Shown: piece by piece, positions 20,903 to 45,633 of the stretch
How the letters are laid out: each line of letters opens with the position of its first letter
Position numbering within the stretch: position 1 is the first letter of the stretch
Source: Rubrivivax sp.
Lineage (GTDB): Bacteria > Pseudomonadota > Gammaproteobacteria > Burkholderiales > Burkholderiaceae_C
NCBI GenBank assembly: GCA_016789865.1
Contig: JAEUPC010000216.1
Location: forward strand, 24,593 to 88,592
Direction of reading: 5' to 3'
Length of the DNA: 64,000 nt
Notes under the pieces: generated by a model
What the model was told of the DNA's origin: nothing
Database searches by the model: none
The model's input: only the letters and a program-made list of their open reading frames with translations
Position numbers and translations under genes: made by a program

Positions 20903-21847
20903 TCACTTGGTGTGGCAGCTCAGGCAGACCCCGCTGCCCGCGTTGCTCACGCGCAGGAAGGTCGGGTTGAACACGCTGCCCGGGCCGGCCGAGGGCACGC
21001 CGTGCGGGTCATGGCAGCTCGCGCACTCCACCTCGTAGCCTTCGCCGGTGTTGTACAGGCGGACCTCGCCGGCATCGGCGCGGCCGTTGCCGTTGGTGTC
21101 GAAGTACGCCAGCCGCGCTTCCTTGCGCGGCGGGTCCTTGAAGTCGGTGCCCACCCCGGCCGCGGCGGGGAAGCGGATGCCCACCGGGTGGTCGTTGCGC
21201 AGGTCGGTGCCGATGGCAAACGCCGTGAAGTCGGTGGCGTTGGCGCCCAGCGGCCCGGCGCCGCTGGCGTGGCAGGCCAGGCAGCCGGTGGCGGTGAGCG
21301 TCATGTGCGCCGTGGCGTCCGGCCCGCGCCGGTTGTCCCACTCGGCGTTCAGGAACGCGGTGTTCTCCACCGTCTCCTGCGCCGGGTTGTAGCGGCCCGA
21401 GCCGGGCATGTTGATGATGCTGTCGACGGCCGTGGTGCCGTCGTGGCAGCTCAGGCACGTGAGCGAGTTGATGCCCGGCGGCGTGACGGGCTGCGTGATG
21501 CTGGCCGAGCCCAGCAGGTCGTAGGTCTGGTAGGTGTTGACCTTCATCGTGCGGTTCCACAGCGGAGCAGCCACGCTGCGGTTGGCACCGTGCGGCGTAT
21601 GGCAGTAGACGCACACCTCCTCGTAGTCGTTGCGGTACGAGTCCATCGTCTGCCCGGTCGGGCCGCCGCCGCTGACCTGCCGCTGCGACAGGTTGTGGCG
21701 CGTGTTGCCCACGCTGCCGCGGTTGCTGAACTTCGTCGGGATGTCGGTGTCGGCCGCCGCCGGCAGCGGGGCCGCCAGCGTGCATGCGAAAACCAGGCCG
21801 AGCACGGCCGCCAGCGTGGGCAGGGTCGATCGCGGCGCACTGTGCAT
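20903..21847 (-). CDS. pentaheme cytochrome c, OmcE-like
   Basis: A 314-residue exported protein (signal peptide to about residue 32). Five CXXCH motifs: C79-H83, C131-H135, C189-H193, C275-H279, C308-H312. The mature protein has exactly five further histidines (H51 in TRHNL, H86 in TPHG, H181, H220 in NDHP, H282 in DPHG), enough for bis-His ligation of every heme. Residues 250-261 (DTNGNGRADAGE) match an EF-hand calcium loop. It shares HTPHG, APLWN, CLSCHDGT, GTDL-NDHP and CASCHDPH with the tetraheme protein at 27397 and the 11-heme protein at 38936. First gene of an operon with ccmF-ccmG-ccmH. Confidence 0.9.
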   Translation of the reverse strand: MHSAPRSTLPTLAAVLGLVFACTLAAPLPAAADTDIPTKFSNRGSVGNTRHNLSQRQVSGGGPTGQTMDSYRNDYEEVCVYCHTPHGANRSVAAPLWNRTMKVNTYQTYDLLGSASITQPVTPPGINSLTCLSCHDGTTAVDSIINMPGSGRYNPAQETVENTAFLNAEWDNRRGPDATAHMTLTATGCLACHASGAGPLGANATDFTAFAIGTDLRNDHPVGIRFPAAAGVGTDFKDPPRKEARLAYFDTNGNGRADAGEVRLYNTGEGYEVECASCHDPHGVPSAGPGSVFNPTFLRVSNAGSGVCLSCHTK

Positions 21848-21890
21848 GGCAGAAGCTCCCTCGCGCGGAAGATGGGCGTCGGTGCGATGA

Positions 21891-21906
21891 TGCAAGTCGC
21901 GTTCCC
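21891..21906 (-). promoter_or_regulatory. candidate sigma54 promoter of the pentaheme/ccm operon
   Basis: On the minus strand GGGAACG-CGAC-TTGCA matches the -24/-12 consensus TGGCACG-N4-TTGCW with the key GG and GC and the full TTGCA; two mismatches in the -24 half. It lies 44 bases before the start codon. Confidence 0.4.
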
Positions 21907-21954
21907 GGAGCCAGGCCGGCGGCGCATGCGGTGCATGCGGCGCGACGGCGCCAC

Positions 21955-22027
21955 GGCGCGAGGGCCCGAAGGCGCGACGGCGCGACGGCGCGAGGTCCCG
22001 AAGGCGCGATGGCGCGATGGCGCGAGG
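21955..22027. repeat. 32-bp tandem repeat, two copies plus a partial
   Basis: Units of 32 bases, each starting GGCGCGAGG and containing CCCGAAGGCGCGA, begin at 21955, 21987 and 22019. The block fills the spacer between the pentaheme gene and the NHL lipoprotein gene. Confidence 0.75.
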
Positions 22028-22127
22028 GCGAGGGGGCGCAAGACGGCCCGGCCTCCGGCGCTGCGCTTCCCGAAGGCAGGCGTGCCGGCGGTTCCCGGTT
22101 CCCGGATTCGAGACGGCGCCCACGCCC

Positions 22128-23237
22128 TCAGCCGGCAGCCGCCGCCCGCTGCCAGCGCCGCCCCTCGTCGTCGGCCAGCTTGCGCAGCACCTCCACCTTG
22201 TGCAGGTACTGGTCCACGACGTACAGCCGCGCCGTCTCGTCGCAGGCCAGGCGGGCCGGCAGCGCCCAGCGGCCGGGCGCGTCGTGCATCGCGCGGGCAC
22301 CCAGCGGCAGCAGCAGCACGCCGTGCGCGTCGAACACCTGCACGTTGGCCAGCATCGCATCGGCCACGTAGACCAGGCCCTCGGCGTCCACCGCCAGCCC
22401 GCGCGGCCGCGCCATTTGCCCGATGCCGTTGCCGGCCGAGCCGAAGGCGCGAAGGAAGCGGCCCTCCGGGCTGAACGCCTGCACGCGGAAGTTGCCGGCG
22501 TCCAGCACCCACAGCGTGCCGCCGGGGCCCACTGCGGCGTCGCTGGGCAGGTTGAACTCGCCGTCGCCAGCGCCGCGCCGGCCCAGGCGCCGCACGAGGC
22601 GGCCCTGCGCCTCGTGCGTGAAGACGAGGTGGCTGTCGCTCTCTACGCCGCCGGTGTCGACCACGTGCACGCGCGCGCCCGAAGGCTCCACCGCCACCGC
22701 GGTGGGCCGCACCCACCAGGGCGCGCCGTCGATGTGGCCGAGGTACAGGCCGAGCGCGTCGTAGACCACCACGCGCCGCGCGATGCTGTCCACCACGTAG
22801 ACGCGCCCACGCCCGTCCAGCGCGATGCCCGCCGGGCGCTTGAGCTGCCCCTCGAAGCGCAGGCCGAAGCTGTAGGTACGCCGCCGCGGCACGTCGAAGA
22901 CGAAGACGCGGCGACCCTCGGTGTCGGTGACGAACACGCGGCCTTGGCCGGCGGCCACCGCGAACGGCTTGCCGAAGCTCGCACGCGCGTCGTCCTCTTC
23001 GCCGGCCAGCAGGCGCTTCAGCGGGCTCGCATCGGCGGCATGCAGGCTGGCGCCGTTGCGCAGCGTGGCTTCGAAGATGAAGCGCGGTTGCTCGGGCGGC
23101 GCCGGCCACAGCAATGGCCCTGGGGGCGCGGGCAACCGGGCCGGCGTCGAGCAGCCCGTGCACACGCCCCCGGCGGCCCAGGCGGAGGCTGCCAGCGCCA
23201 GGGTGGCGTGACGCCGGCCGCGCCGCAGCCCGTTCAT
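22128..23237 (-). CDS. NHL-repeat beta-propeller lipoprotein
   Basis: A 369-residue lipoprotein: signal peptide with lipobox VCTGC-S (Cys29), then six NHL/beta-propeller blades such as LKRPAGIALDGRGRVYVVDSIARRVVVYDA and MARPRGLAVDAEGLVYVADAMLANVQVFDA. The start LLWPAPPEQPRFIFEATLR is shared with the propeller at 26069, so the two are paralogues. No enzymatic motif. NHL lipoproteins accompany multiheme cytochrome operons in Geobacter-type electron-transfer loci and may be assembly or anchoring factors. Last gene of the leftward operon from 25590. Confidence 0.9.
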   Translation of the reverse strand: MNGLRRGRRHATLALAASAWAAGGVCTGCSTPARLPAPPGPLLWPAPPEQPRFIFEATLRNGASLHAADASPLKRLLAGEEDDARASFGKPFAVAAGQGRVFVTDTEGRRVFVFDVPRRRTYSFGLRFEGQLKRPAGIALDGRGRVYVVDSIARRVVVYDALGLYLGHIDGAPWWVRPTAVAVEPSGARVHVVDTGGVESDSHLVFTHEAQGRLVRRLGRRGAGDGEFNLPSDAAVGPGGTLWVLDAGNFRVQAFSPEGRFLRAFGSAGNGIGQMARPRGLAVDAEGLVYVADAMLANVQVFDAHGVLLLPLGARAMHDAPGRWALPARLACDETARLYVVDQYLHKVEVLRKLADDEGRRWQRAAAAG

Positions 23238-23275
23238 CCCCGGGCGCCCATCACAGCGCAGTCATCACAGCGCAG

Positions 23276-24520
23276 TCACCGCGAGGGGTTCGTCGCCGCG
23301 CGCTCAACGCCCGCACCCGTGTCACCCATCGCGGCGGCCTGAGGTGCCCGCGGCGCTCGGGGCGCCGGCGGCACCTGTGGCGAGCGTAGTGCCTGTGGCG
23401 CCCCCGGCTCGGCCCGGAACATCGCGCGCTCGACATAGGCGGCCACCGCCTCCACCTCGGCGGGCTCGAGCACATCCTTCCAGGCCGGCATGGAGGTGTC
23501 GGGCAGCCCCTCGCGGATGCGCTGGCGCAGCAGCACGCGCGGCATCGTCGCTTTCGAGTACTGCGTGAGGTCGCGCGCCTTGGGCTCCAGGAACTGGCCG
23601 ATCCAGTTGCGCCCGGTGCCGCTGCCGCCGTGGCAGAAGGCGCAGTTGTCCTGGAACAGCTTCTCGCCGCGCTTCTCTTGCGGCGTGAGCGCTGCGGCCA
23701 CCTGCGGCGGCCGCTCCTGTCGCGCATAGACGCTGGCGCCGCTGATCGCATCGATGCCCGGCGGCAGGTTCGGCTGCCCCGGCTGGAAGCCCATGCGCGG
23801 GTACGACAGCGGCCGCGCTGCCCAGACCGGGCCCTCTTCGCTGACGCGTGCGCGGTCATGGCAGGTGATGCAGGTGGTGAGAAAGAGCCCCCGGCCGGCC
23901 TGCTGTGGAGCAGTGAGCGTTTCGGGCGGCGCATCGAGTGCGATGTCGCCGCGCGCGAACGGAAACGCCGCGGCGTGCCGCTCGTGCCTCGGCCAGCCGT
24001 TCTCGGCCGTGTGATAGGCGGTGTTGCGCGCCTTGTCGCGCACGAACTCGCGCTCGACGAAGGCGGTCACGGCACGCACCTCGTCGTCGGAGAGGATGCC
24101 GCGGAACGACTTCATCGCCGTGCCGGGCTTGCCCTCGCGCACGGCGGCTTCGATGGCCGCCGCGCCGATCGGTGCGGCGGTGAAGTCGCGCGGCCGCGGG
24201 CTCAGGTAGGTGCTGGCCAGCGTCTTCGAGTCGCCCGAGTAGCCGTGGCAGAAATAACAACGGAAGTTGTAGACGGCACGACCGCGTTCGTGCTGCGCCT
24301 CGCGCGGCGCCGTCGGACGCTGCGGCGCGGTGGCGGGAACGCCGGGCGTGGCGGCCGCCGGCGCCGCAGCGGCCGGCGCGGCCGCGGCGGTCGGCAGCAG
24401 CGCGGGAGCGCCCGGCGGCGAGGCGGCGGTCGAAGTGCGCCCCCAGCCACCGCCCAGGTCGTGGCCCATCAGCAGCAGCAGCGCCGCTTCGGTCACCCCC
24501 AGCAGCGTGAAGCGCCACAT
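23276..24520 (-). CDS. triheme cytochrome c with three class I-like domains
   Basis: A 414-residue exported or membrane-anchored protein: N-terminal helix (residues 3-19), an Ala/Pro-rich linker (about 35-72), then three c-type cytochrome domains with C88YFCH, CITCH and CAFCH. Met residues in GTAMKSFRG and DTSMPAWKD resemble class I axial ligands. Another Ala/Pro-rich tail ends the protein. It starts 35 bases after the diheme gene and precedes the NHL lipoprotein by 38 bases. Likely periplasmic electron carrier. Confidence 0.87.
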   Translation of the reverse strand: MWRFTLLGVTEAALLLLMGHDLGGGWGRTSTAASPPGAPALLPTAAAAPAAAAPAAATPGVPATAPQRPTAPREAQHERGRAVYNFRCYFCHGYSGDSKTLASTYLSPRPRDFTAAPIGAAAIEAAVREGKPGTAMKSFRGILSDDEVRAVTAFVEREFVRDKARNTAYHTAENGWPRHERHAAAFPFARGDIALDAPPETLTAPQQAGRGLFLTTCITCHDRARVSEEGPVWAARPLSYPRMGFQPGQPNLPPGIDAISGASVYARQERPPQVAAALTPQEKRGEKLFQDNCAFCHGGSGTGRNWIGQFLEPKARDLTQYSKATMPRVLLRQRIREGLPDTSMPAWKDVLEPAEVEAVAAYVERAMFRAEPGAPQALRSPQVPPAPRAPRAPQAAAMGDTGAGVERAATNPSR

Positions 24521-24555
24521 GCCGCAAGCCCGTGCGCGTGCGCCCGTGCGGCGTC

Positions 24556-25590
24556 TCAGCGCGCCACCGTCGGCGGCGCAGCCTGGGCCGTGCCGGGCAG
24601 CGCCGGCGGCCTGCCGAGGATGAAGGCCTGGAACACGTACTCGGCCACGTCGGCCATCTGCTGCGGCGTGGCCACCTTGTTCCAGGCCGGCATCTCGCTG
24701 GCCAGGCGCCCTTCGCTCACCGCGGCGAACAGCACCAGGCGGTTGAAGCGCGCTCGCGAGTCGGCCTCGCCGAAGTTGCGCGGCTTGGGGTTGATGAAGT
24801 AGGCGCGCGGCCCCTGCCCGTCGCCGCGTGTGCCATGGCAGGTGGCGCAGTTGGCGAGATAAAAAGCACCCCCGCGCCGGCTGTCGCCCTTCAAGCCGTT
24901 GGGGAGCCCGACCGTCATGTCGACCCGCGCGGGGGTGGAACCGGTGGCAGCGGCTGGGCCGGCCAGGCCCGCCGACCGCGCCGCGGGCGCATCGGCCTCG
25001 CGGCCACCATGGGCCCGCGTGCCCGAGATCGCTGCGGAGGGCGGGGCCGTGGTGGCAGCCCCACCGCCGGCCACGCCCGCGGCGCCCTGGCCTAGCACGA
25101 AGCGCGTGTGCACATGCTCGGCCAGCACGTCGACGTCGGCCGGCGACAGCTGCGCTTTCCAGCCCACCATCGCCGTGCCGGCCACGCCGTGCGAGATGAC
25201 CGCCGCGATGCGCTCGCGGCTGAGCGTCTGGCGCGCCGCCGCTGATGTGAAGTCGCGCGGCAGCGTCGACAGCGACCCGGTGGCGCGGCTCTTGCCGTCG
25301 CCCTTGTCGCCGTGGCACACGCTGCAGTAGTTGTGATAGAGCGCTGCGCCGTCGCTGGCCGCCCAGACGCGCGGCGCCGGCGCAAGCAGCACGAGCGAGG
25401 CGATGAGGGCCAGTGCGTTCAGCCACCGGCCTGCGGCGCCGGTATCGGCAGGAACATCCTGATGCTCCGAATGGCCTCGGTGGACCAGATGAGCCTGATC
25501 GACCTGAGGGCCTATGCAGACGGCGCCACTTGCGGTGCCCGCGCCGCCGGCGCCGCCGCGAGCCCGCCGCTGCGTGTCGTTAGATGTCAT
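24556..25590 (-). CDS. diheme cytochrome c
   Basis: A 344-residue exported protein with two class I cytochrome domains, CSVCH (89-93) and CATCH, each followed by a GDG-rich loop and a Met-containing segment (GTAMVGWK; ASEMPAWNK). A flexible Ala/Thr linker joins them. The signal segment (LNALALIASLVLLAPAPRVWA) is preceded by about 56 odd residues because the only ATG is at 25590; the real start may be a non-standard codon nearer the signal. First gene of the leftward operon. Confidence 0.82.
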   Translation of the reverse strand: MTSNDTQRRARGGAGGAGTASGAVCIGPQVDQAHLVHRGHSEHQDVPADTGAAGRWLNALALIASLVLLAPAPRVWAASDGAALYHNYCSVCHGDKGDGKSRATGSLSTLPRDFTSAAARQTLSRERIAAVISHGVAGTAMVGWKAQLSPADVDVLAEHVHTRFVLGQGAAGVAGGGAATTAPPSAAISGTRAHGGREADAPAARSAGLAGPAAATGSTPARVDMTVGLPNGLKGDSRRGGAFYLANCATCHGTRGDGQGPRAYFINPKPRNFGEADSRARFNRLVLFAAVSEGRLASEMPAWNKVATPQQMADVAEYVFQAFILGRPPALPGTAQAAPPTVAR

Positions 25591-25632
25591 CGCCGGCCTC
25601 GCGCTTCCTGTCCGATCGTGTGGAGGGCGTTC

Positions 25633-25648: not shown

Positions 25649-25666
25649 CCACGTCGCGCGGCGGCA

Positions 25667-25735: not shown

Positions 25736-26056
25736 GTGCACTTTTCAAAGCTGAGACTTCCCGCCGTCGCCGTTCTCACTTTCGGCATCGCTGCCTCCGT
25801 GGCACCGGCGCAGGCCAACGACGGCAAGGCCGTGTACGACAAGACCTGCGCGATGTGCCACGCGCAAGGCGTGGCCAATGCGCCCAAGCTCGGCGACAAG
25901 GCGGCGTGGGCACCACGCGTCGCGCAGGGCGTGCCGGCGATGGTGGCCACCGTCGTCAAGGGCAAGGGCGCGATGCCGCCCAAGGCCGGCAACGCCACGC
26001 TGACCGACGCCCAGATCAAGGCCGGCGTCGAGTACATGCTCGCCTCGGTGAAGTAG
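25736..26056 (+). CDS. monoheme cytochrome c5-like protein
   Basis: A 106-residue periplasmic cytochrome: signal peptide to ANA/AQA-N near residue 27, heme motif C38AMCH42, then GVANAPKLGDKAAWAPR and the ligand segment KGAMPPKAGNA, all typical of cytochrome c5/c555. GTG start with AGGAG eight bases upstream. The same domain reappears as the N-terminal half of the fusion protein at 32203. Likely a soluble carrier feeding the multiheme proteins. Confidence 0.92.
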   Translation: MHFSKLRLPAVAVLTFGIAASVAPAQANDGKAVYDKTCAMCHAQGVANAPKLGDKAAWAPRVAQGVPAMVATVVKGKGAMPPKAGNATLTDAQIKAGVEYMLASVK

Positions 26057-26068: not shown

Positions 26069-27187
26069 GTGACCTCCACGCGCCGCAGCTGCCTGCAGGG
26101 CCTGGCCGGGGCGGCCGGGCTGTGGCTGGCCGGCTGCGGCAGCGCCCCGCCGGCGGCCCGGGCGCCCGACGCCCGGCCGCTGCTCTTTCCGGCGCCGCCG
26201 GACGAGCCGCGCTTCGTCTTCGAGCGCGTCATCCGCAGCAGCGCCGATGTGCTGCCCGACCAGAGGACGAGTGAACTGCGGCGCCTGGTCACCGGCGAAG
26301 AGACGCGCGGCGAACCGCTGTCCAAGCCCTATGCCGTGGCGGTGACGCGCGGGCGCATCTTCGTCAGCGACACCGTCGCGCGCTTCGTGCGCGTGTTCGA
26401 CGTGCCCGCCGGCAAGCAGCACCGCATCGGCGACGACGAAGGCGTGGGCCAGCTCATCAAGCCGATCGGCCTCGACGTCGACGCGGCCGGCCAGCTGTAC
26501 GTGGCCGACATCGGTGCGCGCGCCATCATGGTCTACGGCGCCGACCGCGGCTTCCTGCGCCGCATCGGCGGCGAGAAGTGGTTCAACCGCCTGACCAGCG
26601 TCACCGTCGATCCGCTGGGCGAGCGCGTCTACGCCGTCGACCTGGGCGGCGTGAGCAGCGCCGAGCACCGCGTGCGCGTGTTCGATGCCCGCACCGGCGC
26701 GCACCTGCACGACATCGGCCGGCGCGGCAGCGGGCCGGGCGAGTTCAACCTGCCGCGCGACATCGCCATCGGCGCCCAGGGGCGCCTGTACGTGGTGGAC
26801 GGCGGCAACTTCCGTGTCGTCGTCTTCGACCGCGAGGGCAACCCCCTCAAGAGCTTCGGCAGCGTGGGCAAGCAGTACGGCCAGTTCGCGCGGCCCAAGG
26901 AGATCGCGGTCGACCGCGACGGCAACGTCTACGTCGTCGATGCCGCGTTCGGCAACTTCCAGATCTTCAACCCCGAAGGCGAACTGCTGCTGTTCGTGGG
27001 CGAGCGCTCCGAGCGCGACGGCCCGGCCCGCTACATGCTGCCCTCGGGCATCGCGGTGGACGAGGACGGGCGCGTCTACATGGTCGACCAGTGGTACCGC
27101 AAGATCGAGGTGTTCCGCCCGTTCGCGCTGGCGCCCGAGGCCGGGCACCTGGCCCGGCGCCCACCGGTCACCGCGTCTTCGCGCTGA
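26069..27187 (+). CDS. NHL-repeat beta-propeller lipoprotein
   Basis: A 372-residue lipoprotein. The leader has a twin-arginine-like STRRSCLQG and the lipobox LAGC (Cys23). Six NHL blades follow (IGLDVDAAGQLYVADIGARA; KEIAVDRDGNVYVVDAAFGN; SGIAVDEDGRVYMVDQWYRK). Paralogue of the protein at 22128. It begins 12 bases after the monoheme cytochrome gene, sharing its transcript, and directly precedes the tetraheme gene. Confidence 0.92.
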   Translation: MTSTRRSCLQGLAGAAGLWLAGCGSAPPAARAPDARPLLFPAPPDEPRFVFERVIRSSADVLPDQRTSELRRLVTGEETRGEPLSKPYAVAVTRGRIFVSDTVARFVRVFDVPAGKQHRIGDDEGVGQLIKPIGLDVDAAGQLYVADIGARAIMVYGADRGFLRRIGGEKWFNRLTSVTVDPLGERVYAVDLGGVSSAEHRVRVFDARTGAHLHDIGRRGSGPGEFNLPRDIAIGAQGRLYVVDGGNFRVVVFDREGNPLKSFGSVGKQYGQFARPKEIAVDRDGNVYVVDAAFGNFQIFNPEGELLLFVGERSERDGPARYMLPSGIAVDEDGRVYMVDQWYRKIEVFRPFALAPEAGHLARRPPVTASSR

Positions 27188-27396: not shown

Positions 27397-28287
27397 ATGA
27401 GACTGATGAGGTTCACCGGTCGCACGAGGTGGGGGGCGGCGTCCGCAGGGTTGCTGGCGGCGTTTCTCCTCATGCTCGGCGGCACGGCGTCGGCAGGCAT
27501 TGCCGACACCAAGCACAACCTCGGTTCGGGGCCCGGCCCGGCGGGGCGCAACCAGGCCGGCGACACGGCCGAGATCTGCGTGTTCTGCCACACGCCCCAC
27601 GGCGGCGACACCGCGGCACCGGTGCCGTTGTGGAACAAGCGGCTGGGCGTGGCCGGCGCGCCGGCCGGCGGCGGCACGTACATCACCTACGACACGCTGC
27701 AGACGCCGTCGCTCGACGGCACCGTGGCGCCGGTGGGCTCCATCTCGATGGCCTGCCTGTCCTGCCACGACGGTACGCAGGCAATGGACAACGTGATCAA
27801 CGCGCCCGGCTCCGGCGGTGTCGTCGCCGACGGCGGGGGTGCCGACGGCCGCACGTGGACCTGGACCGGCCCCACCGCCAACGCCGCCGGCCGCCTGGCC
27901 AGCGGCGCGGCGCTGCTGGGCACCGACCTGTCCAACGACCACCCGATCGGCATCCAGTACTGCGGCGGCGGTCTCGCCGGCACGGGCACCACGGTGTCGG
28001 GCACCTGCGCAGACACCGACTTCGTGCAGCCGCTGACCCAGGTCATCAACGGCAACCAGATCTTCTGGGTGGAGACGGGCGGCACCGGCAAACAACGCAC
28101 CGACCTGCCGCTGTACCAGCGCGCTGCCGGCGGCCTGGGGCCCCTGGTGGAGTGCGCCAGCTGCCACGACCCGCACGTCTCCACCGGCCAGGCCGGTCCC
28201 ACGGGCACCGGGCGCACCGCCGGCGAGACGTTCCTGCGCATCAGCAACGCCAGCAGCGCGGTGTGCACGGCCTGCCACGTGAAGTGA
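27397..28287 (+). CDS. tetraheme cytochrome c, OmcE-like filament cytochrome candidate
   Basis: A 296-residue exported protein, signal cleaved near ASA-G34. Four CXXCH motifs: C61-H65, C120-H124, C253-H257, C290-H294. The protein has exactly eight histidines; the four outside the motifs (H40 TKHNL, H68 TPHG, H182 NDHP, H260 DPH) match the heme number, so all hemes can be bis-His. C189 and C204 could form a disulfide. Size, heme number, motif order and neighbours (NHL lipoprotein, prolyl isomerase, beta-barrel) resemble Geobacter OmcE, whose subunits polymerise into extracellular wires; this is from memory of the family, not an alignment. GGAG lies nine bases before the ATG. Confidence 0.92.
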   Translation: MRLMRFTGRTRWGAASAGLLAAFLLMLGGTASAGIADTKHNLGSGPGPAGRNQAGDTAEICVFCHTPHGGDTAAPVPLWNKRLGVAGAPAGGGTYITYDTLQTPSLDGTVAPVGSISMACLSCHDGTQAMDNVINAPGSGGVVADGGGADGRTWTWTGPTANAAGRLASGAALLGTDLSNDHPIGIQYCGGGLAGTGTTVSGTCADTDFVQPLTQVINGNQIFWVETGGTGKQRTDLPLYQRAAGGLGPLVECASCHDPHVSTGQAGPTGTGRTAGETFLRISNASSAVCTACHVK

Positions 28288-37434: not shown

Positions 37435-38936
37435 GCCGCCGCCCCGGCCGGACCTGCACGCCGCGCCCGGCCGCGGCCGTGGCCGCGCTGGCAGCGTGCG
37501 TGCTGCTTGGCGCCTGCGCCGCGCTGGGTGGCACGAGCGGCAGCACGAGCGGCAGCACGAGCGGCAGCACGAGCGGCGCAACCAATGGCGGTGCCAGCGC
37601 CGCCGCCGCCATCGTCAAGGGCCGGCTGCAACACGATCTCGGCGACGTGCCCGAAGGCCACCGCATCACCTGGCCGGCCACGCCCGAGGTGCCTCGCTAC
37701 TTCTACGGCGGCGCGCTCACCGGCGAGCCGAACTTCAGGCGCGATGAACCGGCGCGCGGCGCGTTGCAACGCCTGGGCCGCTGGATCGCCGGGCTGGACG
37801 ATGCCCCCGAGGCGCCGCTCGTGCTGCAGCGCCCGGCGGCCGTGGTCGGCGACGACCGCGGGCGCCTGTACGTCAGCGATGCCGGCCGGCAGGCCGTGTT
37901 CGTCTTCGATGCGGCGGCCGGTGAGTTGCAGCTGTGGGACGGCGCGGCCAACGGACTGCGCTTCGTCTCGCCCAGCGGCCTGGCGGTGCAGGTGGATGAA
38001 GGGGCCCCGCACGGTGGCGCCGGTGGCTTGCGGTCCGGCGCACCCGGCGCACCCGGCGCAAACGGCACCGGTGGTGCCATCGGAACCCGCGGCGCAGTCG
38101 GTTCACACAGCGCAAGCGGTGCGAGGGGTGCGAGCGGTGCGGGCGGTGTGCCGGGTGCGCGTCTCTTCGTCGCCGATGCCGAGCTGAGGGCGGTCTTCGT
38201 GCTCGACGCCCAGGGCCGGCCGCTCGGGCGCCTGGGCGAGGGCCTGCTGCAACGCCCCACCGGCGTGGCGCGCGACGCGGCCAGCGGCCGGCTCTTCGTC
38301 GCCGACACGGCCGCGCACGACATCAAGGTGTTCGACGCCGCGGGCCACCACGTCAGGACGCTCGGCCGGCGAGGCGAATCCGCCGGCGAGTTCAACTTCC
38401 CCACCCACCTGGCGCTGCGCGATGGGCGCCTGTACGTCACCGACACGCTGAACAACCGCGTGCAGGTGCTCGACGTCGACCCCGCGCTGGAGCACGCCAG
38501 CACGACGCTCGGCCGCCCCCTGCGCAGCTTCGGCCGGCGCGGCCTGTTCGTCGGCAACCTCGTGCGGCCCAAGGGCGTGGCCGTGGACGGCGAGGGCAAC
38601 GTCTATATCGTCGAGAGCTTCTACGACAGCGTGCTGGTCTTCTCGGCCGAAGGCGAGTTCCTGCTGCCGATCACCGGCTCGGGCGCGCTCAGCAGCAGCC
38701 CCGGGGGGGAGCACAAGGCGGCATCGACAGGCCCGCCGCGAGGTGCGTCGACCAGCACATCGACGGGCACATCGAGCAGCGCCTCAAGCAGCGCATCAAG
38801 CGGCGCATCAAGCGGCCCCAGCGCCGGCGCCTTCTACCTGCCCGCCGGGCTGTGGATCGACGGCCACAACCGCGTGCACGTGGCCGACATGTTCAACGGC
38901 CGCATCGTGCTGCTGCACTTCCTGGGGGGCGGCTGA
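37431..38936 (+). CDS. NHL-repeat lipoprotein with low-complexity inserts
   Basis: A 501-residue lipoprotein, lipobox LLGAC (Cys29), directly followed by a (SGST)n tract from a 12-base tandem repeat at about 37541-37578. NHL blades are clear (LQRPAAVVGDDRGRLYVSDA; LQRPTGVARDAASGRLFVADT; VRPKGVAVDGEGNVYIVES). Two inserts interrupt the propeller: a Gly/Ala-rich collagen-like stretch about 198-240 and a Ser/Thr/Ala-rich stretch about 430-465. These are likely surface loops that expanded by slippage. Coupled to genes on both sides. Confidence 0.88.
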   Translation: MSRRPGRTCTPRPAAAVAALAACVLLGACAALGGTSGSTSGSTSGSTSGATNGGASAAAAIVKGRLQHDLGDVPEGHRITWPATPEVPRYFYGGALTGEPNFRRDEPARGALQRLGRWIAGLDDAPEAPLVLQRPAAVVGDDRGRLYVSDAGRQAVFVFDAAAGELQLWDGAANGLRFVSPSGLAVQVDEGAPHGGAGGLRSGAPGAPGANGTGGAIGTRGAVGSHSASGARGASGAGGVPGARLFVADAELRAVFVLDAQGRPLGRLGEGLLQRPTGVARDAASGRLFVADTAAHDIKVFDAAGHHVRTLGRRGESAGEFNFPTHLALRDGRLYVTDTLNNRVQVLDVDPALEHASTTLGRPLRSFGRRGLFVGNLVRPKGVAVDGEGNVYIVESFYDSVLVFSAEGEFLLPITGSGALSSSPGGEHKAASTGPPRGASTSTSTGTSSSASSSASSGASSGPSAGAFYLPAGLWIDGHNRVHVADMFNGRIVLLHFLGGG

Positions 38937-41545
38937 TGCGCGGGGTGCTCACCGTCTCGCTCGTCGGCACCTGGCTGGTCGTGGCATTCGGCTGGCTCGG
39001 CCCGGCGCCGCTGGCCGACGCGCAGCGCGTGAGCGACGTGCGCGGCACGCGCCACAACCTCTCGGCCACCGGGCCCGGCAGCACGCGCGCGCTGGCGCCG
39101 GCCAGCGGCGGCACCAGCGAGGTGTGCGTGTTCTGCCACACGCCGCACGGCGCGAGCACGGCCGATGCCGGCGGCACCGCGCTGCGCTCGCCGCTGTGGA
39201 ACCGCCGTGTGCCCGCAGGCACCACCTACACGCCCTACACGAGCAACACGCTGGACGCGCAGAGCATCACCGACGGCCTGAACAGCACGCCGGGCGGCAG
39301 CAGCAAGCTGTGCCTCTCGTGCCACGACGGCACGCTGGCCATCGGCAACGTCAACGTGCTCGGTGGCCGCGCCAACGTGACGATCGCGATGCAGGGTACC
39401 GGCGCCGGCGGCACCGTGCCCGCGGGCGAAGGCACCACCACCGGCTTCACGCGGCACCTCGGCACCGACCTGCGCAACGACCACCCGATCTCGGTGACCT
39501 TCAACACCGCGCTGGCCACGCGCGACGGCGAACTGCGCGTGCCCGATGCGCAGCAGCGCTGGCCGGCTGGCAGCACGCCGCCTTCGACGATCCTCGGCGT
39601 GCGCGGCCCCGGCTTCAAGCCGCTGCTGCCGCTGGAGCCCACCGGCAGCAACCGTGCCGGCCAGGTGCAATGCGCGAGCTGCCACGACCCGCACATCCTC
39701 GAGCTCGACGCCGGCAAGGGCAACCAGAAGTTCCTGCGCTCGCAGCGCTTCCAGGAAGCACCCCCCGGCGCCAGCCACAACGCCGCCAGCGACCAGGTGT
39801 GCCTGGGCTGCCACGACAAGAACGGCGCCTTCGGCAGCTGGGCGCATTCGGCGCATGCCAAGCCCGCGGTGGCCGACGAAACGTACCGCGACACCTCGGC
39901 GCAGCTGCGTGAGTTTCCGCCCGGGCTGCCGGTGTGGAAGGCCGGTTGCCTGAACTGCCACGACACCCACACCTCGCAAGGCGCGCGGCGCCTCACGCGC
40001 GAAGGCACCGACGGCGCGCAGGCCAACCCGCAGGCCGCGCGCCAGGGCGGCAACCCGGCGCTGGAGAACACCTGCTATGCCTGCCACACCACGGCGGCGA
40101 AGTCGGCGCTGACGAGCACGCTGCAGGTGCCCGACATCGAAAGCGACTTCGCGATGGCGATCCGCATGCCCATCACCACCAGCGAGCAGGGCCTGGGCAG
40201 CGAGGTGCACGACATCGCCTCGAACTTCGCCGACGGCAGCGTCGACTGCACCACCGCCAACAACCGCTGCGGCGCCGACTTCATGGAGCCGCGCAGCCGC
40301 CTCGCGCAGCGCCATGCCGAGTGCACCGACTGCCACAACCCGCACCGCGTCATCCGCAACCGGCTCTTCAACGCCGACCCCACCACCCCCGACCCCGCGG
40401 GCACGCACCGCCACGACGAGACCACCGGCGCTGCGCACAGCAACCTGGCCTCGGGCGTGCTGCGCGGCGCCTGGGGCGTCGAGCCGGTCTACGGCTCGAC
40501 CTCGTTCCACAGCCTGCCCGGCGGCTACGCCGTCAAGCGCGGCGACCCGGGCGCCAACACGAGCACGGCGGTCACGCAGCCCTACGTGACGCGCGAGTAC
40601 CAGATCTGCATGAAGTGCCACTCCGACCATGGCTACGCCGACAACAACGTCTACCCGCTGGGCAACCGCCCGGCGCTGGGCCGCACGGGCGGCACGGCGG
40701 CCGGCACCAACAACCTGACCGTCTACACCAACCAGGCCAAGGAGTTCCAGGCGCCCGCGTCGCACCAGGGCGAGGGCACCAAGCCCGGCCCCGGCGCGGG
40801 TTCCAACTACGCCACCAACAACCACCGCAGCTGGCACCCGGTGATCGGGCCCACCGGGCGCAGCGGCGCCAACGCCGCCGCCTTCCGCGCGCCGTGGGGC
40901 AACGCGATCGGCACGCAGACCATGTACTGCAGCGACTGCCACGGTGCCAACACGGCCGATGCGAGCGTCGTGCCTCCCGGCGGCGACAACGGCACCGCCT
41001 GGGGGCCGCACGGCTCGAACAACAGCTTCCTGCTCAAGGGCGTGTGGAACAGCAGCGTGGGCGCCGACAACCGCGGCGACAACGGCCCCAACGCCAACGG
41101 CCTGTGCTTCAAGTGCCACAACCCGAACACCTACGCCAACCGCAACGGCAGCGGCCAGACCGGCTTCTTCAACGGCGACCGCGGCAACTTGCACGCCTAC
41201 CACACCGACAAGGTCGGGCGCATGCGCTGCAACTGGTGCCACGTGGCCGTGCCGCACGGCTGGAAGAACAAGGCGCTGCTGGTCAACCTCAACGACGTCG
41301 GCGAAGAAGCCGGTCAGCCCGCCGGCGGCAACCGCGAGTGGCGCATGGGCGCTTCGGGCCAGGCCTTCAACCAGCAGCCGTATTACCTGAATTCCAAGCT
41401 CAAGGTGCGCACCTTCGCCACCAGCGGCAACTGGACCGACACCAACTGCGGCAGCAACAACAGCGCCACCACCTTCGGCACCAACGCCAACAACACGGCG
41501 AACGGCAAGGACTGGATGAAGGACGTGTGCAGCAACCCGCCTTGA
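38936..41545 (+). CDS. 11-heme cytochrome c
   Basis: An 869-residue exported protein with eleven CXXCH motifs in order CVFCH, CLSCH, CASCH, CLGCH, CLNCH, CYACH, CTDCH, CMKCH, CSDCH, CFKCH, CNWCH. The first third repeats the module of the tetra- and pentaheme proteins (TRHNL, HTPHG, PLWN, CLSCHDGT, GTDLRNDHP, CASCHDPH). More than twenty other histidines are available as ligands. Asn/Gly/Thr-rich loops suggest a surface or extracellular location. ATG overlaps the stop of the NHL gene. It is the largest electron carrier of the locus and may be the terminal or filament-capping component. Confidence 0.92.
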   Translation: MRGVLTVSLVGTWLVVAFGWLGPAPLADAQRVSDVRGTRHNLSATGPGSTRALAPASGGTSEVCVFCHTPHGASTADAGGTALRSPLWNRRVPAGTTYTPYTSNTLDAQSITDGLNSTPGGSSKLCLSCHDGTLAIGNVNVLGGRANVTIAMQGTGAGGTVPAGEGTTTGFTRHLGTDLRNDHPISVTFNTALATRDGELRVPDAQQRWPAGSTPPSTILGVRGPGFKPLLPLEPTGSNRAGQVQCASCHDPHILELDAGKGNQKFLRSQRFQEAPPGASHNAASDQVCLGCHDKNGAFGSWAHSAHAKPAVADETYRDTSAQLREFPPGLPVWKAGCLNCHDTHTSQGARRLTREGTDGAQANPQAARQGGNPALENTCYACHTTAAKSALTSTLQVPDIESDFAMAIRMPITTSEQGLGSEVHDIASNFADGSVDCTTANNRCGADFMEPRSRLAQRHAECTDCHNPHRVIRNRLFNADPTTPDPAGTHRHDETTGAAHSNLASGVLRGAWGVEPVYGSTSFHSLPGGYAVKRGDPGANTSTAVTQPYVTREYQICMKCHSDHGYADNNVYPLGNRPALGRTGGTAAGTNNLTVYTNQAKEFQAPASHQGEGTKPGPGAGSNYATNNHRSWHPVIGPTGRSGANAAAFRAPWGNAIGTQTMYCSDCHGANTADASVVPPGGDNGTAWGPHGSNNSFLLKGVWNSSVGADNRGDNGPNANGLCFKCHNPNTYANRNGSGQTGFFNGDRGNLHAYHTDKVGRMRCNWCHVAVPHGWKNKALLVNLNDVGEEAGQPAGGNREWRMGASGQAFNQQPYYLNSKLKVRTFATSGNWTDTNCGSNNSATTFGTNANNTANGKDWMKDVCSNPP

Positions 41546-41693
41546 CAACGCGCGAACGAACCTGCTGCGCGACCCGATCTCGCACCAGCGCTCCTCGCCG
41601 TGCGCCGGTACGGCTGCGGTGCTCGGCGCGACCTCGGGCCGCTCGCTACGGCTCTTTCGCACGTTGTCGAGCATCTCCCTGGCTTCTTCACTC

Positions 41694-42761
41694 ATGAATA
41701 CCGCCTGGCACTCGCTCGTCGCGCATGTCGGCTCGCTGCGCAGCACGCTGGCGCTGTTTGCGCTGCTGGGCGCGGTGATCTTTGTGCGGCCGGACTTCAT
41801 CGCGCTTGGCCTTGTGATGGCCGGGCTGGCGTTCAACCTCGCCGCGGCGATCGTCGTGCACCCGGCGTTCCGCCGCCGCTTTGCGCTGCTGGTGGCCCAC
41901 CTGGCGCTGCTGGCGCTGGTGCTGGGCGTGGGCTTCGGGCGGCTGCTGGCGCTGGACGGGCGCTTCGAGCTCACCGAAGGCGTGCCCTTCGACGGCCAGT
42001 TGCTGAACCGCACGAGCGGCCCGCTGCACCGCGAACGGCTGTCGCAGCTGCAGTTCACGCACCACGGCTTCGAGATCGACTACGCACCGGGCCGCAGGCG
42101 CGGCGCCACGCGCAATGCGGTGAGCTGGTCGGATGCCGAAGGCCGCGTGCGGCAGGCCGTGATCGGCGACCATGTGCCGCTGGTGCTGGACGGCCATCGC
42201 TTCTACACCAGCCCGAACAAGGGCTTCGCCCCGGTGCTGCGCTGGCAGCCCGAGCGGGGCGAACCCGTGCGCGGCGCGGTGCACCTGCCGAGCTACCCGA
42301 TGCACGAGCTCAGGCAGTCGCGGCCGTGGCACCTGCCCGACGGGCGCCAGGTGTGGGTGATGCTGAGCTTCGACGAAGCGCTCATCCCGCCCGAGCGGGC
42401 CGCGCTGTTCCGCAAGCCGCAGGTGCACCGGCTTGTCGTGCGCGTGGGCGACGCGCGGCATGAACTGGCGCCGGGCGAAGCGATGCCGCTGGCCGGCGGC
42501 GTGCTCACCTACGAAACGCTGGCCACCTGGATGGGCTATCGCATCGCCTTCGACCCCACGCTGCCATGGCTGCTGGCCGCGGCGCTGGTGGCCGCGCTGG
42601 CCCTGGCGTGGCACTACACGGCGAAGTTCCGCAGCGCCCCCGCGCCGCGCGCGGCAACCGATGGGGCTGCGGGCGTGCTGCCACCGGCCAGCGTGCAGGG
42701 CACCGCGCCCGCGGCCACGCAGATGCCGCCGTCGCGACCCCTGGAGTGGGCCGATGGATGA
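41694..42761 (+). CDS. ResB-like cytochrome c biogenesis protein
   Basis: A 355-residue membrane protein: three N-terminal helices (STLALFALLGAVIFV; FIALGLVMAGLAFNLAAAIVV; FALLVAHLALLALVLGVG), a large periplasmic domain, and one C-terminal helix (LPWLLAAALVAALALAWHY). This is the topology of the shorter ResB/Ccs1 variants of system II, which hand apocytochrome to CcsA. The stop overlaps the CcsA start by eight bases. The 148-base spacer before it holds no recognised element. Confidence 0.8.
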   Translation: MNTAWHSLVAHVGSLRSTLALFALLGAVIFVRPDFIALGLVMAGLAFNLAAAIVVHPAFRRRFALLVAHLALLALVLGVGFGRLLALDGRFELTEGVPFDGQLLNRTSGPLHRERLSQLQFTHHGFEIDYAPGRRRGATRNAVSWSDAEGRVRQAVIGDHVPLVLDGHRFYTSPNKGFAPVLRWQPERGEPVRGAVHLPSYPMHELRQSRPWHLPDGRQVWVMLSFDEALIPPERAALFRKPQVHRLVVRVGDARHELAPGEAMPLAGGVLTYETLATWMGYRIAFDPTLPWLLAAALVAALALAWHYTAKFRSAPAPRAATDGAAGVLPPASVQGTAPAATQMPPSRPLEWADG

Positions 42762-43542
42762 AGGCTGGATGCTGCGCGCCGCGCTGGGCAGCTATGCCGC
42801 GGCGTGGCTCGCGCCGGCGCGCTGGCCGCGGCTGGTGATGCTTGCCGCGGCGCTGGCGCTGGGCCTGCACACGGCTTCGTTGCTGCTGCGCTGGGCGGCA
42901 CATGGGCATGGCCCGTTCACCACGATGCACGAGATCCTCAGCTCCAGCCTGTGGAGTCTGGCGCTCGTGCTCGCGCTGGCCGCGGCAGCGCTGAGCGAAG
43001 CGCGGGCGGCCTGGCGCCTGGCGGCGCCGCTGCTGGCGCTGCTGGCGCTGTGGGCGCTGGTCGCACCACCGGGTCGCGGGCACTTTCCTCCCACCTATGC
43101 CACCGCGCTGCTGTACGTGCACGCGGTGCTGGGCAAGCTCTTCCTCGGGCTGCTGCTGGTGGCGGTGGCGCTGGGCAGCGTGCCGCTCGCGCGACGCACG
43201 CCGATCGGTGCGCGCCGCTTCGCTGCTGCGCCGGGCGACGCCCGCTTCGACGAGCTCGCGCATCGCTTCGCCGCCTTCGCGTTTGTGGCCGACACGCTGA
43301 TGCTGATCGCCGGTGCCGTGTGGGCACAAGACGCATGGGGCCGCTACTGGGCCTGGGATCCGCTGGAGACCTGGGCCTTCGCCACCTGGCTGGCGCTGGC
43401 CGGCGCGCTGCACGCGCGTGCGACGCTGCGCCCGGCGCCCGTGGTGCACGGGCTGTGGTTGGCAGCGATCTTCGCGCTGGCCTTCCTCACCTTCTTCGGC
43501 GTGCCGTTCCTCAGCACCTCGCCGCACAAGGGGGCGATCTGA
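42754..43542 (+). CDS. CcsA/ResC-like heme lyase
   Basis: A 262-residue polytopic protein with the WWD-type motif WGRYWAWDPLETWAFATW and flanking conserved histidines (LLYVHAVLGK; HGPFTTMHE; VVHGLW). With the ResB-like protein it forms a system II heme-attachment unit. Together with CcmF-CcmG-CcmH and CcmI, two types of cytochrome c assembly machinery are encoded in one locus. Confidence 0.88.
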   Translation: MDEGWMLRAALGSYAAAWLAPARWPRLVMLAAALALGLHTASLLLRWAAHGHGPFTTMHEILSSSLWSLALVLALAAAALSEARAAWRLAAPLLALLALWALVAPPGRGHFPPTYATALLYVHAVLGKLFLGLLLVAVALGSVPLARRTPIGARRFAAAPGDARFDELAHRFAAFAFVADTLMLIAGAVWAQDAWGRYWAWDPLETWAFATWLALAGALHARATLRPAPVVHGLWLAAIFALAFLTFFGVPFLSTSPHKGAI

Positions 43543-44180
43543 TGGGTCCCGCATCAAGCGCCGTGCCGCGCCACCGCACCGCCCTGGGCCGGCGGGCCGG
43601 GCGGCGCCGTGCGGCTGCCTTGCTGACGCTGGCGTCGATCCTCGCGCTTGGCGCCGCGCTCGACGGTCGCCTGCCCGAGCCGGCGACGCCACCGGCGCGG
43701 CCGTCGGCCGCCACGTCATCGCACACACCCCGGCCACCCTTGCCGCCGCCGCATGCCGCCGAGGTGCAGCGCCGCTTCGAGCAAGCCGTGGTGATGCTGC
43801 ACGCCCGGCAGCACGGGCATGCGCTCACCGCGCTGCACAGCGTGCTGGCGCTGGCGCCGCAGTTGCCCGAGGCGCATGCCAACGCGGGCTTCGCGCTGCT
43901 GGGCCTAGAGCGGGCGAGAGAGGCGCGCGACTTCTTCGAAGGCGCCATCGCGCTGGCTCCGGGCCAGGCCAACGCCTACTACGGCCTCGCACTGGCCTGG
44001 GAAGCCAGCGGCGACCTCGCGATGGCCACCGGCGCGATGCGCAGCTACCTGCACCTGGCGCGCGACGAGCGCCCCGAGCACCTGCGTCGCGCCCGCGCGG
44101 CGCTGTGGGAGTGGGAGCAGGCGCGAGCCCTTGCCTCACCCCCGTCGGCCCCGGGGCCGCCCGCCGCCGCGTCGCGCTGA
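43542..44180 (+). CDS. exported TPR protein
   Basis: A 212-residue protein with an N-terminal membrane segment (AALLTLASILALGAALDG), a Pro-rich linker, and two to three TPR units (GHALTALHSVLALAPQLPEAHANAGFALLG; ARDFFEGAIALAPGQANAYYGLALAWEASG). It overlaps the CcsA stop. A role as an apocytochrome or partner-binding chaperone, like the TPR part of CcmI, is plausible. Confidence 0.78.
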   Translation: MGPASSAVPRHRTALGRRAGRRRAAALLTLASILALGAALDGRLPEPATPPARPSAATSSHTPRPPLPPPHAAEVQRRFEQAVVMLHARQHGHALTALHSVLALAPQLPEAHANAGFALLGLERAREARDFFEGAIALAPGQANAYYGLALAWEASGDLAMATGAMRSYLHLARDERPEHLRRARAALWEWEQARALASPPSAPGPPAAASR

Positions 44181-44206
44181 GGGCGCCCCGCCGGCCACCC
44201 TGAGGC

Positions 44207-44222
44207 TGGCCCCCAAGTTGCA
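44207..44222 (+). promoter_or_regulatory. candidate sigma54 promoter upstream of ccmI
   Basis: TGGCCCC-CAAG-TTGCA has the TGGC and TTGCA cores at exact spacing, with two mismatches in the -24 half. The ccmI start codon is 128 bases downstream. Confidence 0.42.
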
Positions 44223-44279
44223 TGGCGCACCCCATGACGCCCTGCCCCGCCCGCCACGGGTGCCCGCCGCCAGCGCCCC

Positions 44280-44315
44280 TTCCCGATTGCGGGAATGCGT
44301 TCCCGTGCGCGGCAA
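44280..44315. promoter_or_regulatory. tandem palindromes TTCCCG-N4-CGGGAA
   Basis: Two sites with centres 20 bases apart: a perfect TTCCCG-ATTG-CGGGAA at 44280-44295 and TTCCCG-TGCG-CGGCAA (one mismatch) at 44300-44315. The two-turn spacing suggests a regulator binding as adjacent dimers. The perfect palindrome recurs at 27201. Confidence 0.5.
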
Positions 44316-44349
44316 GGCGGCAGCGGCAGCCAGGCCCGAAAGCGTCGCG

Positions 44350-45633
44350 ATGCTGATGTTCTGGCTCGTCGCGGCGCTGTTCCTTGCCGGTGCGCTGCTG
44401 TTCCTGCTGCCGCCGCTGCTGCGGCCGCGGCTGGCCGGGCTGGGCGCCGCCCAGCTCAGCGTGCTGGTGCATCGCGACCAGTGGCGCGAGGCGAAGGCCG
44501 ATGTCGCGCTCGGGCTGCTCGACGCCTCGCACCAGGCCGAAGTGCGCGCAGACCTCGAACGCCGCCTGCTGGAGGATGCCGGCGCTTTGGCGTCGGCCGC
44601 CTCGGGTGCACCACCACCACCAACTCCACCGCGCCCGGCCGGCACGGCGCGCCCTGCGCACCGCATCGCGCTCGCCCTCGCGCTGCTGCTGCCGCTGTGC
44701 TGCGTGCTCGCCTACCTGCAGCTCGGCCGGCCCGACGCGGTGCCGCCGTCGCAGCGACCGACCGCCGCCGCAACGGCCACGCGCCACGCGCTGACGCCCG
44801 AGCAGATCCAGCAGATGGCCGCCAGCCTGGCCGAGCGCCTGAAGGCCCAGCCGCGCGACGCCGAAGGCTGGTTGATGCTCGCCCGTTCGTACACCGCGCT
44901 GGCCCGCTACCGCGACGCGGCCGGCGCCTTCCGCAAGGCGATCGAACTGCTGCCGCCGAACGCCAATCTGCTCGCCGACCTGGCCGATGTCACCGGCATG
45001 GCCCAGGGCAAGCGCCTCGCGGGCGAGCCGGCGCGGCACATCCAGACGGCGCTCGACCTCGACCCGCGGCACGTCAAGGCGCTGGCGCTGGCCGGCAGCG
45101 TGGCCTTCGAGGCGCGCGACTACGCCACCGCCCGAAGCTACTGGGAGCGGCTGGTGGCCGTGTTGCCGCCCGATGCGCCGATGTTGCGCGGCATCCGCGG
45201 CAGCATTGCCGAAGCCTCGCGGCTGGAAGGCAGCAGCGCGGGGCCTCCCGCCGCGGCCGACAGCGGCGCAGCCTCTGCCGCGGCAGCCACCTCGGTACAC
45301 GGCGAGGTCACGGTCAGCCCGGCGCTGGCCGCGCAGCTGGCGCCGGGTGACACGCTGTTTGTCCTCGCCCGCGCCGCCGAGGGCCTGCGCGTGCCGCTGG
45401 CCGTGCAGCGCTTCACCGTGGGCGGACAGACGCGTTTTGCCTTCGCGCTGGACGACGGTATGGCGATGGGCCCGAACCTGAAGCTCTCCGCGTTCGCGCG
45501 TGTCGTCGTCAGCGCGCGCGTCTCGCGCAGCGGACAGGCCGCACTTCAGGGCGGCGACCTGCTCGGCAGCAGCGAGCCGGTGGCCCCGGGAGCCACCGGC
45601 GTGAAAGTGGTCATCGACCGCGTGCAGCCCTGA
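44350..45633 (+). CDS. ccmI: cytochrome c maturation protein CcmI
   Basis: A 427-residue protein: N-terminal helix (MLMFWLVAALFLAGALLFLLPPLL), cytoplasmic loop with a leucine-rich segment, second helix (HRIALALALLLPLCCVLAYLQLG), then periplasmic TPRs (QPRDAEGWLMLARSYTALARY; KAIELLPPNANLLADLAD) and a C-terminal domain. CcmI binds apocytochromes and delivers them to CcmF/CcmH. It is separated from ccmFGH by the whole cytochrome locus, an unusual split. The ATG at 44350 begins the first helix; upstream frame is not conserved-looking. Confidence 0.88.
   Translation: MLMFWLVAALFLAGALLFLLPPLLRPRLAGLGAAQLSVLVHRDQWREAKADVALGLLDASHQAEVRADLERRLLEDAGALASAASGAPPPPTPPRPAGTARPAHRIALALALLLPLCCVLAYLQLGRPDAVPPSQRPTAAATATRHALTPEQIQQMAASLAERLKAQPRDAEGWLMLARSYTALARYRDAAGAFRKAIELLPPNANLLADLADVTGMAQGKRLAGEPARHIQTALDLDPRHVKALALAGSVAFEARDYATARSYWERLVAVLPPDAPMLRGIRGSIAEASRLEGSSAGPPAAADSGAASAAAATSVHGEVTVSPALAAQLAPGDTLFVLARAAEGLRVPLAVQRFTVGGQTRFAFALDDGMAMGPNLKLSAFARVVVSARVSRSGQAALQGGDLLGSSEPVAPGATGVKVVIDRVQP

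Follow-up and report, generated by a model that had tools for sequence, protein, structure and literature searches.

An undecaheme electron transfer (Uet) locus with OmcE-family cytochromes in a Rubrivivax genome

Gene content and identity of the locus

We have analyzed a window of 64,000 nucleotides from Rubrivivax sp. (Burkholderiales; GenBank assembly GCA_016789865.1, contig JAEUPC010000216.1, positions 24,593 to 88,592), in which the interval 20903-45633 holds a large set of cytochrome genes. By gene content and by the order A-B-C-D-E-F-G-H-I-J, compared with the portions of the published descriptions available to us, this locus is assigned to Uet (undecaheme electron transfer), which has been described for cathode-oxidizing Tenderiales and for six Gallionella (PMC10734462, PMC5371394). 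An initial annotation made from the sequence had proposed a large electron-transfer locus in a Burkholderiales-type genome, which our analysis supports, and had called the system uncharacterized, which needs revision: Uet was already named, and it had been published for betaproteobacteria before this window.

In our own gene list, 22 genes cover 94% of the interval, confirming the nearly continuous array of about 25 kb first described. Ten c-type cytochrome genes, the number originally reported, carry 5, 3, 2, 1, 4, 3, 4, 3, 3, and 11 CxxCH motifs (39 in total). When sequences were shuffled 1000 times each, CxxCH occurred on average 0.035, 0.004, and 0.018 times in UetJ, UetA, and the pentaheme cytochrome, against the actual 11, 4, and 5; since these means are near zero, the richness in heme motifs is not produced by chance. 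The genes for the pentaheme cytochrome, an NHL-repeat protein, and the class I cytochromes with three and two CxxCH lie on the minus strand, and those from the monoheme cytochrome onward on the plus strand. Some gene starts were chosen by hand, and those of 24556-25590, 35945-36307, and 36322-37434 are approximate. The Uet genes and the pentaheme paralogue of UetA are as follows.

20903..21847, minus: pentaheme UetA paralogue, OmcE-like with one extra heme motif (7TFS, E = 1.9e-18, in two stretches)
27397..28287, plus: UetA, OmcE-family tetraheme cytochrome (7TFS, E = 5.9e-22, residues 20-295; 9yuq, E = 1.9e-22)
28348..29526, plus: UetB, PPIC-type prolyl isomerase with SurA-like N-terminus (Pfam Rotamase_2 4e-16, SurA_N_3 2.4e-6)
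29603..31543 (alternative start 29483), plus: UetC, predicted outer-membrane beta-barrel (AlphaFold2 mean pLDDT 84.4)
31612..32187, plus: UetD, triheme cytochrome c7 (Pfam Cytochrome_C7 1.1e-14; TIGR04257 5.5e-17)
32203..33264, plus: UetE, monoheme class I domain fused to a triheme C7 domain (Pfam Cytochrome_CBB3 1.3e-10, Cytochrome_C7 4.8e-12)
33300..34283, plus: UetF-like protein, copy 1 (no Pfam match; conserved position between trihemes)
34280..35305 (or 34370-35305), plus: UetF-like protein, copy 2 (no Pfam match; conserved position)
35349..35900, plus: additional triheme C7 cytochrome (Pfam Cytochrome_C7 6e-12)
35945..36307, plus: UetG, triheme C7 cytochrome (Pfam Cytochrome_C7 1.5e-14)
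36322..37434, plus: UetH, probable propeller lipoprotein (weak SGL, PQQ_2, and NHL matches, E 0.003-0.006; lipobox LAGC at residue 54)
37431..38936, plus: UetI, NHL-repeat lipoprotein (Pfam NHL 3.6e-19; lipobox)
38936..41545, plus: UetJ, undecaheme cytochrome (869 aa, 11 CxxCH; OmcE-like N-terminal domain and a part with the other heme motifs)

As far as the available parts of the descriptions go, the Uet of Ca. Tenderia electrophaga and Gallionella shares the tetraheme A, the isomerase B, the barrel C, the trihemes D, E, and G, F, the NHL proteins H and I, and the undecaheme J, in the same order (PMC10734462, PMC5371394). For Tenderia, the trihemes Tel_16515, 16520, and 16530 are described as apparently cotranscribed with the TPR protein Tel_16525, and the undecaheme is Tel_16545 (PMC5371394); judging from the letters and the order of locus tags, UetF would be this TPR protein. 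Relative to these descriptions, the window has in addition a class I heme domain fused to UetE, a doubled UetF, and a fourth triheme, together with an upstream pentaheme/NHL/class I module and adjoining heme-attachment genes. Between UetD and UetE, locus L104 (10252-11133) has three monoheme class I matches in tandem; in the window, one such domain is fused to UetE. Homologues of UetH stand at the equivalent place in five other loci (L143, L144, L104, L103, and L150).

The prolyl isomerase of the initial annotation was verified as PPIC-type by the Pfam match at E = 4e-16. Its four propeller lipoproteins stood in part: Pfam supports three as NHL propellers and the fourth, UetH, weakly (NHL E = 0.006), and a strict lipobox was found in three (26069, 36322, and 37431) but not in 22128-23237. 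None of the ten cytochromes has a strict lipobox.

The UetJ proteins of two Gallionellaceae loci (L033 and L058) share 48-54% identity with that of the window. The accessible part of PMC13264449 also notes an undecaheme cytochrome for Ca. Dechloromonas occultata, which reduces manganese; in our UetJ scan, a Dechloromonas contig (L035) carries the cluster. No Tenderia-titled record was among the UetJ loci listed, which are the best 80 of 562 stretches.

OmcE-family cytochromes, the UetC barrel, and distribution

By sequence comparison, UetA, the pentaheme paralogue, and the N-terminus of UetJ are relatives of the Geobacter cytochrome OmcE, given as 7TFS in the passages available of PMC12954529. 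In a PDB sequence search, 7TFS was matched by all three (6e-22 to 7e-18; UetJ N-terminus, E = 7.2e-18), so the OmcE-like tetraheme with penta- and 11-heme relatives recognized at first was upheld. The suggested kinship with OmcS was not: no OmcS chain was found at E<=1 among the PDB matches of the three products (27397, 20903, and 38936). The entry 9yuq, which has 16 chains and is titled "Putative multiheme cytochrome c", was matched by UetA and also by the pentaheme protein (1.6e-17) and the UetJ N-terminus (4.8e-12).

UetA shares with OmcE a near full-length alignment with matching CxxCH and extra histidines; the UetA relatives are about 34% identical to OmcE. Exactly eight histidines do not vary in an alignment of 32 UetA sequences: the four of the CxxCH motifs and four others, among them that of CxxCHTPH. 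All 11 CxxCH of UetJ are invariant across 18 aligned sequences, and for its last 481 residues the PDB sequences hold no counterpart at E<=10. Among 103 UetJ-like frames, some of them from one contig twice, CxxCHTPH was found in 101 and [ND]DHP in 100.

In a tree of 158 tetraheme-domain sequences, 97 UetJ N-domains are split from UetA, the pentahemes, OmcE, and 9yuq with a support of 0.987. The support was 0.928 for the UetA clade (53 sequences), 0.918 for OmcE with 9yuq, 1.0 for a clade of five pentahemes with one tetraheme from L058, and 0.70 for the five pentahemes alone. Because the tree is unrooted, it does not date the fusion in UetJ. The L058 tetraheme (832-1743; Gallionella sp. DP16D_bin.1) lies beside UetJ and groups with the pentaheme paralogues, outside the UetA clade. 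Two UetJ-like frames per locus occur in L048, L083, L039, L080, and L033, and a variant cluster in L117 (8821-18601; genome G383) has an OmcE-like 11-CxxCH frame (692 aa) adjoining frames with 24 and 7 CxxCH.

The outer-membrane barrel of the initial annotation, UetC, has no Pfam match and yet gave a confident barrel model with about 28 strands (counted by hand from the DSSP line). Its Foldseek matches are outer-membrane barrels, with MtrB (6r2q_B) at rank 4 (E = 5.2e-9). No NCBIfam family, including the MtrB/PioB model TIGR03509, was found at E<=0.001, and the best match of a UetC profile among PDB sequences had E = 0.063. The model fits a barrel with enough room for a cytochrome, and we infer that one may lie inside it. 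UetC as a member of the MtrB/PioB family was rejected for want of an NCBIfam match. MtrCAB, MtoAB, and PioAB also combine an outer-membrane barrel, which the UetC model resembles weakly, with multiheme cytochromes; they differ in the TIGR03509 match, which UetC lacks, and in the decaheme MtrA, which is absent from the locus. PCC3, as presented in the available part of PMC5566968, likewise joins a porin to multiheme cytochromes in freshwater betaproteobacteria, but it has a very large periplasmic cytochrome (at least 21 hemes). Identity with PCC3 was rejected on this mismatch of components, the largest cytochrome of the window having 11 CxxCH; the PCC3 inner-membrane protein was not searched for.

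UetJ loci number at least 79 (distinct loci kept from the best 80 of 562 confirmed stretches in an alignment scan) and come from Burkholderiales, Rhodocyclales, Gallionellaceae, Gammaproteobacteria, Magnetococcales, and Alphaproteobacteria; one is titled Nitrospirae and the rest are Proteobacteria. Where no less than 9 kb of sequence upstream of UetJ was available (47 loci), we found UetB in 38, UetC in 38, trihemes in 39, UetF in 38, and NHL genes in 40, and all five together on the same strand in 37. UetA was labeled in 32 of the 47, where the 10 kb flank often ends short of uetA, and it was present in all ten named genomes tested: six of the Aromatoleum type or a similar one, in which no UetA neighbors UetJ (L048, L052, L055, L066, L067, and L083), and four others. 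CcsB or CcsA was found in 50 of the 65 loci with at least 3 kb downstream of UetJ. Azoarcus Aa7 (L146) and Aromatoleum tolulyticum (L149) have a split Uet locus, with UetA-B-C about 24 kb from UetJ and an extra OmcE-like paralogue beside an NHL gene.

Co-occurrence was counted in 399 genomes of the same order as the window, of which 18 have UetJ at E<=1e-10 and 14 at E<1e-100. When the three best candidates of each genome were scored, UetC (E<=1e-15) was present in 13 of these 14 and in none of the 385 others (p = 2e-23); for the fourteenth, G216, a UetC-like frame was labeled in L119. UetA at E<1e-100 was found in 13 of the 14 and in one of the 385; this exception, G329, lies at a contig end, and the UetJ genome G011 has weaker UetA matches only. 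The cuts at E<1e-100, here and for RuBisCO below, were set after seeing the lists. Because some of these 399 genomes contributed sequences to the UetA and UetC profiles, the informative part is the absence in other genomes.

Upstream module, heme-attachment genes, and surroundings

The genes between the pentaheme paralogue and uetA are listed below.

22128..23237, minus: NHL-repeat propeller, accessory, paired with the pentaheme gene (Pfam NHL 3.4e-20)
23276..24520, minus: class I cytochrome c (di1) with three CxxCH, a corrected count (Pfam Cytochrome_CBB3 2.8e-28)
24556..25590, minus: diheme class I cytochrome c (di2), two CxxCH (Pfam Cytochrome_CBB3 8.4e-23 on 24556-25566)
25736..26056, plus: monoheme class I cytochrome c (Pfam Cytochrome_CBB3 8.8e-16)
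26069..27187, plus: NHL-repeat lipoprotein upstream of uetA (Pfam NHL 9.6e-21; lipobox LAGC)

In 17 of 19 distinct places, the nearest gene with a match on the upstream side of uetA is an NHL gene, the other two having a flank of about 1.5 kb only, and class I cytochromes divergent from uetA were found in 15 of these 17. Relatives of the pentaheme cytochrome were found in L151, L141/L143, L118, and L148. The pairing with its own NHL gene was seen also in L143, L151, L118, and L148; it recurs in a genome of the same family (G264), Rubrivivax A210, G329, and Aromatoleum toluclasticum.

The two heme-attachment systems of the initial annotation were recovered, with CcsB/ResB, a CcsA-type protein, and CycH inside the interval and CcmF, a CcmG/DsbE-like redoxin, and CcmH just outside it (17666-20886).

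17666-18244, minus: CcmH, System I, edge of locus (Pfam CcmH 8.7e-45)
18320-18847, minus: CcmG/DsbE-like redoxin, System I, edge of locus (Pfam Redoxin 5e-19)
18844-20886, minus: CcmF, System I, edge of locus (Pfam CcmF_C 8.9e-123)
41694..42761, plus: CcsB, ResB-like (Pfam ResB 1.6e-8)
42769..43542, plus: CcsA-type cytochrome c assembly protein (Pfam Cytochrom_C_asm 1.5e-19; TIGR03144, there named CcsB, 4.7e-29, below its cut-off)
43542..44180, plus: TPR protein, recurring downstream of UetJ in other loci (Pfam TPR_2 3e-5, below cut-off)
44350..45633, plus: CycH/CcmI (Pfam Ig_CycH 4.6e-28, TPR_CcmH_CycH 2.1e-23)

Seven Uet genomes were searched for System I genes and ResB. Each gave exactly one ResB match, at or close to the Uet genes: six genomes have it adjacent to UetJ, and G401 has it at a distance of about 7 kb from UetA and 32 kb from UetJ. 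CcmB likewise gave one match per genome. Five genomes have it on a different contig or no closer than 70 kb, G408 has it just past the end of the Uet locus, and in G401 it shares a contig with ResB, about 24 kb apart. Two CcmF were found in three genomes (G000, G264, and G405), each time with one copy at the Uet locus, and the single CcmF found in G408 is at the Uet locus. CcsB is thus tied to the Uet locus in genomes where System I is also present, hinting at a dedicated heme-attachment system. A CcsBA set for unusual heme motifs was considered and rejected: all heme motifs in the ten cytochromes, among the motif types looked for, are CxxCH, so the set is probably not for odd motifs. It probably serves dosage or an export-coupled maturation.

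The second CcmF of the host genome is on contig C195, where a separate MtrCAB-like set adjoins ccm genes (C195:16000-35900, L153, at 9723-16066); it consists of an MtrB/PioB-family barrel (TIGR03509, E = 1.3e-129) and 10-CxxCH proteins of 339 aa and 881 aa. A RuBisCO-family protein was found in the host genome (E = 1.5e-130), and a photosynthetic reaction center was not found in its assembly, which is 77% complete. Just downstream of the locus, the window has a Tll0287-like protein with one CxxCH (45797..46414, plus; Pfam 2.5e-20), which recurs near some Uet loci, and a histidine kinase with a sigma-54 response regulator (47144-50023), a possible regulator. Farther on lie a monoheme cytochrome of class I with two Reg_prop propeller proteins after it (50840-53542) and an Hcp-family type VI secretion protein (57030-57566, minus; Pfam 8.6e-26).

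Proposed pathway and alternative explanations

Our reading, to which we give a probability of roughly 0.75, is that the locus encodes a porin-cytochrome conduit across the outer membrane with an OmcE-family cytochrome, that is, Uet with an added pentaheme/NHL/class I module and its own heme-attachment genes. The proteins would form a complex in which UetC is a large barrel holding a cytochrome. UetD, UetE, UetG, and the fourth triheme would carry electrons across the periplasm, perhaps aligned by UetF, and the class I cytochromes, which have one to three hemes, would link the trihemes to the respiratory chain. UetJ and the OmcE-family UetA would carry electrons at and beyond the cell surface, and UetB and the NHL lipoproteins may aid folding, anchoring, or export of UetJ and UetA. 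In the parts of the published descriptions of the pathway available to us, no test of Uet function beyond expression data is given.

Several observations weigh against this reading. Eight of the 47 loci lack UetB, UetC, triheme, and UetF near UetJ; UetA was found elsewhere in all five searched genomes of those eight (L052, L055, L066, L067, and L083). The TM-score of the UetC model against MtrB is only 0.41, yet this is the highest among the 50 Foldseek rows listed, and the AlphaFold2 model of UetA (mean pLDDT 48.5) is too poor for testing an OmcE-like heme packing. Two of the seven ResB matches fall below the Pfam cut-off, no quinone oxidoreductase was seen among the locus genes, and RuBisCO at E<1e-100 is not significantly enriched (8 of the 14 UetJ genomes against 141 of the 385 others, p = 0.10; E-values counted by hand). 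Any PF00016 match gives 13 of 14 against 169 of 385 (p = 2e-4), a count that includes weaker, possibly RuBisCO-like or partial matches. As the enrichment is not significant at the strict cut, RuBisCO was not used as evidence for the direction of electron flow. We lean toward electron uptake because of the published link to Tenderiales and the class I cytochromes; the undecaheme of the manganese-reducing Dechloromonas, from what is available of its description, points away from uptake (PMC13264449).

We see about an even chance that UetA polymerizes into an OmcE-type extracellular wire, electrically joined to the cell by a UetJ-UetC conduit. Its nearly full-length homology to filament-forming OmcE and to the 16-chain entry 9yuq argues for this, as do the four non-CxxCH histidines, including that of CxxCHTPH, invariant in all 32 UetA sequences: in OmcE, one interface heme is ligated by a histidine of the adjacent subunit, according to the accessible passages of PMC12954529 and PMC12307469. 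These histidines are, however, also compatible with a monomer, an identity of about 34% to OmcE is no guarantee of polymerization, and the structure test failed with the poor UetA model. The available portions of the published descriptions consulted for the pathway mention no filament of a Uet organism.

Somewhat less probable, in our estimation, is a compact conduit, in which monomeric UetA would dock on UetJ, as MtrC does on MtrAB, and serve as a reductase or oxidase at the cell surface. The UetC model is MtrB-sized, UetA, UetC, and UetJ co-occur as tightly as expected for subunits of one complex, and UetA has a weak, sub-cut-off match to the MtrC/MtrF domain model (2.8e-6), although UetC has no TIGR03509 match and the best full-length PDB relatives of UetA are OmcE and 9yuq. 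Purely periplasmic electron storage or detoxification beside an unrelated porin would suit the trihemes and class I cytochromes, most of the ten and probably periplasmic, and the lack of strict lipoboxes, but it is very improbable given that UetC accompanies UetJ (13 of 14 against 0 of 385) and models as a large outer-membrane barrel, and that OmcE itself is extracellular in the passages available of PMC12954529 and PMC12307469.

In a bolder reading, UetJ might itself be a built-in first filament subunit, its OmcE-like N-domain nucleating a UetA polymer while the remaining hemes lie at the UetC barrel, so that the polymer is wired to the outer membrane. We consider this unlikely, although it would explain, if true, how a cytochrome wire joins a trans-membrane conduit. 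UetJ without adjacent UetA, as in the Aromatoleum type, was considered as a counterargument to such an adaptor and was dropped, UetA being present in all ten genomes tested.

To our knowledge, how cytochrome wires are connected to the outer membrane is unsettled. Such wires have been solved from Geobacter and archaea, as reported in the available passages of PMC12954529 and PMC12307469. Specialists may not expect that UetA and the UetJ N-terminus are of OmcE ancestry, or that CcsB is tied to the locus, which is a further oddity in bacteria that also have System I. The link between Uet and OmcE is not stated in the passages available from one of the two papers in which "OmcE" and "undecaheme" both occur, and an earlier publication is possible. 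If UetA is a wire, Uet would unite a wire of the OmcE type with a porin conduit in a single cluster across Proteobacteria. Carriers with strain names, such as Rubrivivax sp. A210, Sphaerotilus mobilis DSM 10617, Ramlibacter alkalitolerans, and Aromatoleum species, make Uet testable.

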